Of a stretch of DNA of 34,464 nt, positions 20,930 to 26,448 are shown piece by piece. Source of the stretch: an uncultured Bacteroidota bacterium (GTDB lineage: Bacteria; Bacteroidota; Bacteroidia; Bacteroidales; F082); the NCBI GenBank assembly GCA_913055825.1, contig CAJXKB010000032.1, positions 1 to 34,464 of the forward strand, in the 5' to 3' direction. Each line of letters begins with the position of its first letter. Within the stretch, counting starts at the first letter, position 1. A program made the translations under genes and the position numbers. The notes below the pieces were generated by a model that was not told the DNA's origin, made no database searches, and was given only the letters and a program-made list of their open reading frames with translations.

Positions 20930-22108
20930 TTAATATTCAAAGGTCCCGTGTGCAGAATGAATGGTCAGTTTTTTTGTGTTTGCGCTCTCCACATGGCCAA
21001 CAATCCGCGCATCTACGCCAAATGTCTTTGAAATTCCTATAATTTTAGTGGCAATACTTTCCGGCACATACAATTCCATGCGATGTCCCATATTGAACAC
21101 CTGATACATTTCGCGCCAAGGTGTATCCGATTGTTTTTGAATCATCTTAAAAAGGGGAGGAGTGGGGAAAAGATTATCCTTGATGATATGCAGCTTATCC
21201 ACAAAATGGAGTATTTTGGTTTGTGCCCCGCCACTGCAATGGATCATACCGTGGATTTGTGGTCTGTATGATTTAAGGATATTTTTGATAATTGGTGCAT
21301 AAGTCCGCGTGGGCGATAAAACCAGTTTGCCCGCGTTAATTCCTTCCAGAGGGCTGGTGCCGGTGAGGTTGAGTTTTCCTGAATAGACCAGTTCGTCAGG
21401 AACCGACGGGTCAAAACTTTCGGGATATTTACGGGCCAGTTCATGCGAAAACACATCATGGCGTGCCGAAGTAAGCCCATTGCTGCCCATGCCTCCATTG
21501 TAATTGTCTTCGTAAGTAGCCTGACCGAATGAGGCCAGACCTACAATTACATCACCGGATTGAATGTGGTTTTCGATGATTTGATTTCGCGGGACACGTG
21601 CTGTAACGGTAGAATCAACAATTACGGTACGCACCAAATCGCCTACGTCGGCCGTTTCGCCTCCCGTAAGCCGGATGTCAATATTCAGCTTCTGCATTTT
21701 TTCAAGGAATTTTTCAGTGCCATTGATGAGTGCAGATATAACCTCGCCGGGAATGCGGTTTTTATTCCGTCCGATGGTGGAAGAAAGCAGAATATTGTCG
21801 GTAACACCCACACACAATAAATCGTCGGTATTCATCACGATGGCATCCTGGGCAATGCCTTCCCAAACACTCAGGTCGCCTGTTTCTTTCCAGTACATAT
21901 AAGCCAGTGCCGATTTGGTGCCTGCTCCGTCAGCGTGCATGATGTTGCAATAGTCTGGGTCATTCCCTAATAAATCAGGGATTATTTTACAAAATGCATT
22001 GGGGTACAGTCCTTTATCGAGTTTGCTAATAGCTGCGTGCACGTCGTCTTTTGAAAAGGAAACCCCGCGTTTTTCGTACCGGGAATCATTGGCCGCTTTA
22101 TTTTTCAT
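20930..22108 (-). CDS. purM: AIR synthase (phosphoribosylformylglycinamidine cyclo-ligase)
   Basis: 392 residues from ATG 22108; a TTG directly before it is a weaker start. PurM closes the imidazole ring in purine synthesis (FGAM + ATP to AIR). Recognisable parts: MHADGAGTKSALA (about 57-69, the ATP-site DGxGTK), NTDDLLCVGV (about 93-102), LTGGETADVGD (about 146-156) and NGLTSARH (about 213-220). The protein is about 45 residues longer than the Escherichia coli enzyme and its motifs are shifted, which matches the divergent long form in Bacteroidota. The start codon lies inside the 3' end of the OmpA-family gene (11-base overlap). Confidence 0.87.
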   Translation of the reverse strand: MKNKAANDSRYEKRGVSFSKDDVHAAISKLDKGLYPNAFCKIIPDLLGNDPDYCNIMHADGAGTKSALAYMYWKETGDLSVWEGIAQDAIVMNTDDLLCVGVTDNILLSSTIGRNKNRIPGEVISALINGTEKFLEKMQKLNIDIRLTGGETADVGDLVRTVIVDSTVTARVPRNQIIENHIQSGDVIVGLASFGQATYEDNYNGGMGSNGLTSARHDVFSHELARKYPESFDPSVPDELVYSGKLNLTGTSPLEGINAGKLVLSPTRTYAPIIKNILKSYRPQIHGMIHCSGGAQTKILHFVDKLHIIKDNLFPTPPLFKMIQKQSDTPWREMYQVFNMGHRMELYVPESIATKIIGISKTFGVDARIVGHVESANTKKLTIHSAHGTFEY

Positions 22109-24572
22109 CAAGGATCAGAAGTTTTTTTTGCGTGTTGAAATGATGTTTACCAAATTTCGACAAAATGCGATCGCCAAATACCAGTCCTCTTTTCAATTGA
22201 TAATCCACCATAATCTGTATATTCTGAACTGTTTTGTTGGCAATACGGACATTCATTAAGTTAATTACAGCACGGTTGGCGATGGTATTATTTTTCAGGA
22301 TTTCCTCCGGGTTCCCGGCAAAATCATCCTTAGAGATTACCCCGTTTTGCAACATTTCCATAGCTTTCTTTAACGAAATGATCCCAAATTGTTTTTTGTC
22401 GTAAGTAAATTCTTCGTGATACCCATTTATAACACAACCGGTAACATAAAGCCCGGATATTTTATCAGGATGATATACGGCAGCGTTTTCCTGTGGGTTA
22501 ATGGCAATGCGAATGTTTGTATCGGCTGTAGCCATAACCAATGATTTCGGAACATAATTTTTGCGGAGCACCCTGAATTCGGAACGCCGGTTCAGCGAAT
22601 AGGCTGCTTCTTTTTCAGCTTTGCTACTCAGTGAGTTGATGTAGTTGTCGTCTAGTGTGGTTCCTTTTTTAAAGAGGAAACCATCTTTTATAATGTCCTT
22701 TTTCAGGGTACGAGGTACACGTTCTCCATAACCTTTGGGTACCAGTCGTGCAGCATCAATGCCACGCATAATGAGGTAATCAACGACCGAACGGGCCCGT
22801 TTTTGCGACAGGATATCATTGCGCTCTTCGGTGTCTCTCGAATCGGTATGGGAGGCCAGCTCGATAACCAGGTTAGGATTTTCACGCAGGGTCTGAACCA
22901 GCCCCTGCAGCGAGTCCTGATATTGTGGTTTTAAATCCCATTTACCTAAATCATACAAAATGTCAGGTAAAACAATGGGCTCGGATGAGATGGGTTTGAG
23001 CACAAAATCTTTTTTGAAGTCTTTACCCAATTCAATTCCTTTGGTCGAGATTTTACCAGTTGCGTTGAAATATCCTTCTTTACTTACTTTAATTTCGTAA
23101 TCGGTTTGGGGTTTAATCTGGCTTTTGCCAAAAGAGTAGAAACCTTTGTTGTTTGTACGCGTACTTACCGAAGATCCGTCTGAGCCTATAAGTTTGATTT
23201 GTATATTGGAGATAGCGAAAAGGGTCCTTTCGTTGGTAACCGTTCCTGAAAGGCTAAATTCAAGAGGCGGTTGGATAAAATAATAAATATCTTCTTTTCC
23301 ACGGCCACTTTTTCGATTTGAACTCAGGTAACCGAAATTTTTAGTGGGGTGTAAAACAATGCCAAAATCATCAAAGGGAGAGTTTATGGGATATTTTAAG
23401 TTCTGAGGTTTACCCCAGCTTCCCGATGAATCTATTTTACTCACGAAAATGTCCAGGCCACCCATACCGCCATGTCCGTCGGACGAAAAATAAAGGGCCG
23501 TGTCACCATGCAAGAACGGGAACATTTCGTTGCCTTTGGTGTTGACAATTTTCCCGAGATTGACCGGGCGGCTGAAAGCTGCATTTTTTGATTTGCGGAT
23601 GGCTGCCCACAAATCTTTACCTCCCTGGCCCCCTTTGCGGTCGGATGAAAAGATAAGCATCAATCCATCCGGGCTCAGTGTGGGCTGTCCGATGGTTTGC
23701 GTAGTGTCCACGGTATTTATTTTAACAAGCCGGGCTTCTCCCCAACTCCTGCCGATTCGTCGCGATACAAAAAGCTGGCATTCCGAAGCCACATTGGGGG
23801 TTCTTTTACAACGGGTAAAATATAAATTTTTAAACTGGCTGTCGGTTTGCGCTGCACCTTCGTTGGCTTTGGTGTTGATGTTTCCCGAAGCATCGATGGG
23901 TTTTGGTGTACTCCATTCCCCGTTTCGATCCTGGCGGCTCACAAAAAGGTTGCTGAAATGCTGGCCCGTCCATTTGTCAATGCCTTTATTTTTTTTGTTG
24001 GCTATTTCACGTGTGGAAGTGAAAACCAACTCGTTATAATTATTTGACAGGAAAGCGGGAGCAAAATCGGCATCGCGCGAGTTAATCTTCTTTACATTGG
24101 TAATTTCATATTTCGACGGGTTCTCTATCCATTTTTGAATGAGCGGGATAGTTTTAGCTCCCAGCCGGCCGCGCGGGTCGTCAGGAACTTTTTCGGAATA
24201 GGCCTGATAATTTTGAAGGGCTTCATCGTAATGACCGTTTATTTTTTGCATGTCGGCCAAATGCAATAAAATTTCAGGATATTTCTTGTCCCATCCGGCG
24301 CGGATAAGTCTTTTGTACGTCATTTCGGCTCTTCTGTAATTCTCGGTAAGCCGGTAACAATCAGCCAGTCTGTAATTTATCCGATTCTTCTCTTTCCGGT
24401 TATTTTTAATTTTTAAATAAGCTTTCCTGTATTTATCGATGGCAACATAATACTGATGCCTGTTATATAAATCGTCGGCAGCACGGGCGGGATTTTTTCG
24501 TTGGGCCATTATCAGTGTTGGCAGGAGTGCCAGGATAATCAACGGGATATATTTTTTAAAAAGTACTTCCAT
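22098..24572 (-). CDS. OmpA-family protein: TPR, PD40 propeller, CRD, OmpA peptidoglycan-binding, C-terminal retropepsin-like fold
   Basis: 824 residues from ATG 24572, chosen because it opens a signal peptide (1-23, ending IMAQ). Order: TPR helices (28-130); beta-propeller with PD40 repeats (about 165-432; LSPDGLMLIFSSDRKGG at 299-315, ALYFSSDGHGGMGGLDIF at 359-376); carboxypeptidase-regulatory-like beta domain (437-527); OmpA C-terminal domain (533-670; ELASHTDSRDTEERN and NRRSEF). The first four domains follow the layout of PorE, the peptidoglycan-binding component of the type IX secretion system. Residues 702-824 add a domain resembling bacterial retropepsin-like proteases, with DKK (725-727) where DTG is expected. 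Likely outer-membrane associated and facing the periplasm. T9SS membership is inferred. Confidence 0.88.
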   Translation of the reverse strand: MEVLFKKYIPLIILALLPTLIMAQRKNPARAADDLYNRHQYYVAIDKYRKAYLKIKNNRKEKNRINYRLADCYRLTENYRRAEMTYKRLIRAGWDKKYPEILLHLADMQKINGHYDEALQNYQAYSEKVPDDPRGRLGAKTIPLIQKWIENPSKYEITNVKKINSRDADFAPAFLSNNYNELVFTSTREIANKKNKGIDKWTGQHFSNLFVSRQDRNGEWSTPKPIDASGNINTKANEGAAQTDSQFKNLYFTRCKRTPNVASECQLFVSRRIGRSWGEARLVKINTVDTTQTIGQPTLSPDGLMLIFSSDRKGGQGGKDLWAAIRKSKNAAFSRPVNLGKIVNTKGNEMFPFLHGDTALYFSSDGHGGMGGLDIFVSKIDSSGSWGKPQNLKYPINSPFDDFGIVLHPTKNFGYLSSNRKSGRGKEDIYYFIQPPLEFSLSGTVTNERTLFAISNIQIKLIGSDGSSVSTRTNNKGFYSFGKSQIKPQTDYEIKVSKEGYFNATGKISTKGIELGKDFKKDFVLKPISSEPIVLPDILYDLGKWDLKPQYQDSLQGLVQTLRENPNLVIELASHTDSRDTEERNDILSQKRARSVVDYLIMRGIDAARLVPKGYGERVPRTLKKDIIKDGFLFKKGTTLDDNYINSLSSKAEKEAAYSLNRRSEFRVLRKNYVPKSLVMATADTNIRIAINPQENAAVYHPDKISGLYVTGCVINGYHEEFTYDKKQFGIISLKKAMEMLQNGVISKDDFAGNPEEILKNNTIANRAVINLMNVRIANKTVQNIQIMVDYQLKRGLVFGDRILSKFGKHHFNTQKKLLILDEK

Positions 24573-24697: not shown

Positions 24698-25315
24698 CTA
24701 CATACGATGTTGGGCATATGGTTTTTCTTCTTTAAATTCAATCGTTAGCATGTTTCTTTTTTCCCCAATTTTTTCTTTTTTCAAAGGTTCAATATCTACA
24801 ACAGCACCAAATTCTATAAATATCTCATAAAACCTTTCATAATCTTTACCCCAATAAATCATTGCACATGACATTGGCGCACCTTTTCCAACATCCAACC
24901 CGTTCTCTAAAAATTTTAGTCTTGTATCATACAAAAAACTGATTGCCCTTGCTTGACCAAATACACTTTGTTTCCAATGACCTGTATTTGTTGCTACCGG
25001 AACTAAAGCAAGTATTTCTGAACCGTATCTATTGTGCGAAAGTGCACATTTTGCCAACCAATTTTTAATTGTAGTGCCGCGTTTTCTGTCTGCTCCATAA
25101 GGAGGATTCATATAGATAGTTGGAAAATTCCAGTCTTGTTTCAATCCGTCAGTATCAGGTAACATGAACTCCGTTTCAGCTTCAACTATGGAATATTCAT
25201 TTGAACAAGGGTCGAGAGATATGGTTCCACCAAAGAAGCGTTTTATTGCAGCAACATATTTAGGTGGTGTCCCCCAACTTTGACTTTGAGAATTTACACT
25301 TCTTCCTGCACTCAT
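24698..25315 (-). CDS. Phage-type DNA N6-adenine methyltransferase of an R-M pair
   Basis: 205 residues from ATG 25315. A GGAGG Shine-Dalgarno sits about 8 bases upstream, rare in this phylum, and decides this start over a TTG at 25330. The ATG overlaps the endonuclease stop as ATGA. Motifs: WGTPPKY (14-20), SLDPCSN (33-39, SAM-binding strand), DGLKQDW and NPPYG (70-74, catalytic motif IV). This is the pattern of the phage-derived Dam family (PF05869-type), usually found in prophages and mobile elements. It should protect sites against the endonuclease encoded just upstream. Recognition sequence unknown. The region is AT-rich. Confidence 0.85.
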   Translation of the reverse strand: MSAGRSVNSQSQSWGTPPKYVAAIKRFFGGTISLDPCSNEYSIVEAETEFMLPDTDGLKQDWNFPTIYMNPPYGADRKRGTTIKNWLAKCALSHNRYGSEILALVPVATNTGHWKQSVFGQARAISFLYDTRLKFLENGLDVGKGAPMSCAMIYWGKDYERFYEIFIEFGAVVDIEPLKKEKIGEKRNMLTIEFKEEKPYAQHRM

Positions 25316-26448
25316 AATATTTTCCTCCAATTTTTTGTTCTTAATTCAGAAATTGCATTTTTTAAATCTTTGATTGACTTATTTTCAGGTGTTATAATAT
25401 TGAACCATGACTCAATATTGCTAATGTTATTGGCAAAATATTTAAGTAAAGCATCATCTGCCGATTTATCCATTCTGACTTTTGTAAAGACATTTCTTTT
25501 TTTATCAGAAGAATAACTATTTTTAAATGCTTCTTGAACAGATTTATATTCTTGAGTTGGATTAAAAATTAATTCGTCAATAAATTGTGCTAACCCTTTA
25601 TCTGAAAGGAAAATTAGCCAGTCATATGATTGAGCTAATACTTTCAACTCTTTATTCTGATTTTCAGAAGTAAACCAATTTCCATGGTTACTAACGATAC
25701 CAACTGTTAAAATGAATTTTTTTAATAATTCAGAGTCTGTTGAATAAATGATTTCTTCCATCAACTCAACATAGGGTTTAATATAGGGTTCGTTATTTGA
25801 GCGATAGATTAAACCATATTTTTCGCCTTTATCTGTTCTGATTTTTTGTAATGAAGATGTTGTTCTTGCTACATATGCCCCTTGCTTTGCTTTTTCAATT
25901 GTTTGAGGACCTTTTTTTGTACCTTCCTCAATTCCTACTCTTTTGCATTCAAACATTGCATAGGGCTTATGCATTTGTTCAAACACAAACAACTCAAATT
26001 CTTGAGAATTGATTGATTTAAAGCTGGTTAATAGGAAAGTGTCATCAGACTCGCCAATTGTACAAGCGTTTCTTATTATATTGTATTTATCAAGTAAATT
26101 ATTGTTTTTCTTTTCAAATTGAGATATATCAGTTTGCTTTTCTAATTTCTTTAATATTTTTGTGGCTGTCAGCGAGTTGCCATCATTTGGAAGTCTTACA
26201 ACGAATTCATTTATGATTGGATGTAGTGAATATTCTACATTATGTGATATATCTTCATTCCCATATTCAAGAAGACCACGTTCAATTGATGTTGAGTTAT
26301 TAAAACCCCAGGTTTTTATGAGGTAGTATGTTATTATTTCAACTAGTGTACCTAATGCTCTTCCTGCAGCTTTCTTTTTATCTTTCGTATAATGAAACAC
26401 TTTTTTTCCAAGAGCATTTTGTAATTTATCTACAGATTCATATGCCAT
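25312..26448 (-). CDS. Putative type II restriction endonuclease, PD-(D/E)xK-like
   Basis: 378 residues. I do not recognise a named subfamily. Residues 27-48 form a helix with Glu37 (GTLVEIITYYLIKTW). Strands around 151-170 read FELFVF then AMFECKR, where Glu167-x-Lys169 fits the ExK half of a PD-(D/E)xK nuclease site, with the helix Glu as a further ligand. The following GPQTIEKAKQGAYVAR helix is in the usual place. An adenine methyltransferase overlaps its stop codon by four bases, which supports restriction function. Sampled stretches have only 18-30% G+C, far below the neighbours, suggesting transfer. The endonuclease gene comes first in the operon. Confidence 0.72.
   Translation of the reverse strand: MAYESVDKLQNALGKKVFHYTKDKKKAAGRALGTLVEIITYYLIKTWGFNNSTSIERGLLEYGNEDISHNVEYSLHPIINEFVVRLPNDGNSLTATKILKKLEKQTDISQFEKKNNNLLDKYNIIRNACTIGESDDTFLLTSFKSINSQEFELFVFEQMHKPYAMFECKRVGIEEGTKKGPQTIEKAKQGAYVARTTSSLQKIRTDKGEKYGLIYRSNNEPYIKPYVELMEEIIYSTDSELLKKFILTVGIVSNHGNWFTSENQNKELKVLAQSYDWLIFLSDKGLAQFIDELIFNPTQEYKSVQEAFKNSYSSDKKRNVFTKVRMDKSADDALLKYFANNISNIESWFNIITPENKSIKDLKNAISELRTKNWRKIL

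Follow-up and report, generated by a model that had tools for sequence, protein, structure and literature searches.

What does a retropepsin-like domain that lacks the catalytic D-T-G do at the end of a protein resembling PorE, of the type IX secretion system (T9SS)? The question is raised by contig CAJXKB010000032.1 of an uncultured Bacteroidota bacterium (Bacteroidales, F082), of which all 34,464 nucleotides were analyzed and are called the window here. An open frame read on the minus strand from position 24572 down to 22098 encodes a protein of 824 residues. The NCBIfam model T9SS_PorE (NF052230) covers residues 12 to 670 of this protein, with profile positions 5 to 648 of 648 aligned (E = 2.8e-168, 561.2 bits). 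Because this score does not reach the curated cut-off of 600 bits, the protein is named PorE-like rather than filed as PorE. Its layout up to the OmpA domain also resembles that of the CHU_0125 family OmpA-like protein (NF053607; E = 7.9e-116), against which it scores 388 bits versus a cut-off of 620.

All the features described here lie on the minus strand. The N terminus is an ordinary-looking signal peptide (about residues 1 to 23; 24504..24572), with no lipobox cysteine according to the translation and a crude lipobox pattern. It is followed by a TPR domain (about residues 30 to 150, limits rounded; 24123..24485), recognized by Pfam TPR_14 at residues 99 to 137 and by other TPR models, and by a beta-propeller (about residues 167 to 435; 23268..24074) that PD40 matches in two stretches, its limits being borrowed from the Porphyromonas gingivalis PorE (PMC7192894). 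The carboxypeptidase regulatory-like domain (CRD; residues 440 to 511; 23040..23255) is identified by PF13620 (E = 5.2e-07; 30.4 bits, just below the cut-off of 32.3) and PF13715, which reaches residue 511 (E = 0.0029). Finally, the OmpA-type domain (about residues 534 to 670; 22563..22973) is matched by PF00691 over residues 540 to 625 (E = 7.8e-16). The Pfam order, TPR, PD40, CarboxypepD_reg (just below cut-off), and OmpA, is that of PorE and, together with the NF052230 match, bears out the domain layout proposed in a preliminary description of this DNA.

P. gingivalis PorE (PG1058) comprises four domains, OmpA being the last, and binds peptidoglycan through D576, N584, and R591 (PMC7192894). 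D577, N585, and R592 of the window protein have the same spacing, and a pattern with this Asp/Asn/Arg spacing occurs in 109 of the 113 tail-bearing frames that are at least 350 amino acids long. Thus, the TPR-propeller-CRD-OmpA order and the triad spacing are common to both proteins, whereas the window protein differs by its sub-cut-off score, by having no lipobox that could be seen, and by an additional retropepsin-like tail. The crude pattern detected no lipobox in the window protein, in 46 of 49 tail-bearing rows, or in 15 of 22 tailless rows. Because most of the tailless rows examined are also without a lipobox, we abandoned the idea that the tail goes together with loss of the lipid anchor.

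The tail comprises approximately the last 128 residues (about 697 to 824; 22101..22484). An AlphaFold2 model of the single chain has a pLDDT of 89.3, and its best PDB matches by Foldseek and VIA-align are a Rickettsia retropepsin, followed by DDI1. A hidden Markov model (HMM) built from 15 domains that keep D-T/S-G matches the window protein with E = 3e-17. In the opposite direction, the nearest sequence relatives of the tail are standalone or TPR-linked retropepsin domains of Bacteroidota (L141, L142, L144, L146, and L150), matched by the tail profile at E = 1.5e-24 to 4.1e-18 and, in all five cases, by PF13975 at E = 1.8e-17 to 3.9e-14; unlike the tail, these retain D-T-G-A-S and are unlinked to PorE. 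Chance resemblance is ruled out by the agreement of the two-way profile searches with the fold, and the preliminary description's claim of a retropepsin-like C-terminal fold stands on the structure model, Foldseek, VIA-align, and these searches. No Pfam retropepsin model matches the window protein's tail above cut-off, and PF13975 matches 15 of 31 tails weakly (best E = 0.0013). When the tail profile was compared with the sequences of solved structures, five weak matches were obtained (best E = 0.047), none of them a retropepsin, so the link to retropepsins came from the genome relatives and the fold.

V798-F799-G800 (22173..22181) aligns as the counterpart of the hydrophobic-hydrophobic-Gly motif, the Gly of which is retained in 87 of 115 tails. 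The window tail thus has the fold and, as VFG, this motif in common with Rickettsia APRc, Pseudomonas RloA (from its published description), and DDI1; it differs from them in being without D-T/S-G and fused to a PorE-like protein. Other retropepsin domains were found along the way. For example, L148, L149, L150, and L151 contain frames of 685 to 742 amino acids with a C-terminal DTG-bearing retropepsin domain; Pfam identifies TPR repeats in L150, the other three look similar by eye, and L149 has two such frames. Another DTG-bearing domain, L159 (G323:C8:5722-6084), contains four stop codons and is an apparent pseudogene.

Alignment to the 15 DTG-bearing domains places D725-K726-K727 (22392..22400) at the position of the catalytic D-T-G, as the preliminary description had read it. 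At this site, the 15 domains have D in 15 of 15, G in 15 of 15, and T in 12 or S in 3; they were retrieved with the tail profile and are thus not an independent set, with a Pfam check on 5 of the 15. The same description had raised the question of whether any ortholog retains D-T-G: it is found at the catalytic site in none of 115 distinct PorE-linked tails, and D-S-G in one (L029). Asp is present in 66 of the 115, and Thr/Ser and Gly are gone from nearly every tail; in the alignment register, the G position is a gap in 14 tails and the T position in 3. Two further tails (L189 and L205) contain the letters D-T-G or D-S-G away from the catalytic site. D-S-G at the site in L029 and D-P-G-T-S in L205 are features of single tails that could be remnants or coincidence. 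Dropped from the set were two broken or cut-off PorE frames (L008 and L010), a copy of the window (L111), a non-PorE frame reading D-T-G (L155), and a chance-like match (L160); the set includes L156, a contig-edge tail lacking D-T-G that was assigned to PorE by inference. Four matches outside the order, read by eye from printed alignments, comprise three with D-T-G and one with D-T-L, so a non-PorE copy can also lose the motif.

The tail profile matches in 91 of the 295 genomes of the order. By hand count, a PorE-like frame carries the tail in 82 of these (the core HMM identifies 81 and one is inferred), and the remaining 9 have non-PorE matches only. The 82 genomes represent 36 sampled families of one order (hand count). 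Within the window's own family, the match reaches the tail in 33 of 36 genomes; in the other three, it ends before the tail, in two cases at a contig start. Across the phylum, the tail profile matches in 5 of 395 genomes, one being the window's own and the other four lying outside the order, and the PorE core was not matched in the fetched stretch of any of these four. The PorE profile, with at most four candidates scored per genome, has a match at E ≤ 1e-100 in 262 of the order's 295 genomes. Among the PorE-profile matches listed, the best have frames of 577 to 749 amino acids, too short for PorE plus the tail; the 82 tail-bearing genomes have one such listed match in 65 cases, two or three in 15, and none in two (hand count). 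In the 36 families, two listed genomes, G221 and G280, have no tail match. In G280, the PorE profile matches at 3.1e-105 and the only frames seen are of 660 and 668 amino acids, which may reflect loss of the tail or a missing contig.

In a tree of the PorE core, one branch (SH-aLRT 99) separates the 62 rows that have a tail from the 35 that do not; the rows were our own choice (62 of 114 and 35 of 81, respectively), and the tree was built by a quick method that warns of long branches. Repeated recent fusion is ruled out for the sampled rows, as the tree needs one change. The preliminary description had counted a tail missing from orthologs against its reading; other PorE-type proteins do lack the tail, but its absence follows clades rather than being random. 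The C-terminal extensions of two PorE-like proteins from other Bacteroidota (L054 and L057) are not matched by the retropepsin tail profile. In 2016, some PG1058 homologues were reported to have N- and C-terminal extensions and 47 sequences were set aside; the portion of that paper available does not identify the extensions (PMC5053529). A PorE-retropepsin fusion is named in no title or abstract from our literature searches, most subscription journals being outside their scope.

Purifying selection on the tail is of similar strength to that on the core, and the tail is maintained rather than decaying. The omega values are 0.030 to 0.108 for the tail and 0.018 to 0.132 for the core, each computable in 13 of 14 close pairs and rough because several dS values exceed 1. 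Column entropies of the tails were compared, with sample sizes made equal, with those of the DTG-bearing domains, the two sets differing in kind (one orthologous clade versus 15 scattered relatives). Conservation falls most at +2, +36, +3, +71, +74, +4, +12, +72, the catalytic Asp, and +78, followed by +1, +63, -2, -5, +75, +77, +48, and -17; +36 and +71 to +78 would line the cleft, as in retropepsin structures. The largest gains are at +17, +27, +24, +34, +96, +35, +41, +45, and +22. They include a helix and the K748-x-x-F751 segment (L741 to F751; 22320..22352), where, among the 115 tails, L741 (+17) is found in 112, I746 (+22) in 107, K748 (+24) in 91, and F751 (+27) in 109. We interpret the shift as a change in working surface; packing may also be reflected in it, with L741 and I746 simply buried. 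Gains near the flap (+34, +35, +39, +41, and +45) and at +96, and losses away from the active site (+12, +48, +63, -2, -5, and -17), indicate that the shift extends beyond any single surface.

The genome of the window encodes porP, porK, porL, porM, and porN consecutively, so a search for porK/L/M/N, suggested in the preliminary description, was positive. Sov/SprA was found as well, along with 43 matches to T9SS cargo tails, 42 of them above cut-off. In P. gingivalis, a Sov pull-down is reported to have brought down PorE (PMC8754138). A purM-like gene follows the PorE-like gene in the window and in all four relatives inspected by eye; in two of these relatives, a tatA-like gene precedes it. 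The PorE-like gene has a tatA-like frame immediately before it in L031 and L035, and in L032 and L035, a frame that appears SecDF-like by eye (1033 and 1051 amino acids) precedes the PorE-like gene or tatA plus the PorE-like gene. In the window, the interval between tatA and the PorE-like gene (24698-26448) contains a Dam-type adenine methyltransferase gene (PF05869, E = 9.6e-15; a PADLOC orphan methyltransferase) and a gene for 378 amino acids with no Pfam, NCBIfam, or PADLOC match.

The data directly support the fold, the absence of D-T-G, the confinement of tails to one side of the sampled tree, the action of purifying selection, and the presence of a T9SS in the genome, and several functions could be built on these. 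Continued proteolysis, through other residues or in a mixed dimer with an active partner, is very improbable: Asp at the site in 66 tails and D-S-G in L029 are what it has to draw on, against the loss of Thr/Ser and Gly from nearly every tail and a PF13650 search of the window's genome that gave no match. A domain that merely shields or stiffens the OmpA domain, with no other binding, would suit its position immediately after that domain, yet the core-like purifying selection and the near-fixed single residues suggest more, and we consider this improbable. Slightly less doubtful is the binding of a peptide, for example, of a cargo protein or a cell wall enzyme, in the old cleft. The cleft-shaped fold is kept and some flap positions are conserved (I at +40 in 101 of 115 tails; gains at +39, +41, and +45), whereas some of the largest conservation losses fall in the catalytic loop and at +71 to +78 (the second loop), and such binding seems unlikely.

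Pairing of two PorE-like proteins via their pseudo-retropepsin domains would join two peptidoglycan-bound anchors. Bacterial retropepsins form dimers (PMC12239564), and the modeled tail retains the fold; however, the same paper places the D-T-G loop at the dimer interface, and this loop is lost in the tail. Pairing therefore also strikes us as unlikely, if the least so of these alternatives. The preliminary description had suggested binding or dimerization; because the retropepsin pairing loop is the part lost, binding via another surface fits somewhat better than binding via that loop. We lean toward the interpretation that the tail is a pseudoprotease reused for noncatalytic docking at the T9SS peptidoglycan anchor. 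The PorE-like protein would reside in the periplasm, with its OmpA domain holding peptidoglycan, and the tail, just after that domain, would dock a periplasmic partner, either a T9SS component or another envelope protein. The docking surface would lie around L741, I746, K748, and F751, not at the old active site.

More tentatively, a clade of Bacteroidales might have rebuilt its T9SS anchor by capturing a retropepsin that lost its active site early and whose K-x-x-F helix became a docking site for a further component. If so, these T9SSs would have an interaction missing from the models for Flavobacterium and P. gingivalis. The protease-derived domain described here adds a fifth to the four reported for PorE (PMC7192894) and sets a large clade apart, and L741, I746, K748, and F751 are concrete residues for testing. 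The tail offers a naturally occurring example of a retropepsin that persists with its catalytic motif gone, and it suggests that this clade has its own connection between the secretion machine and peptidoglycan.
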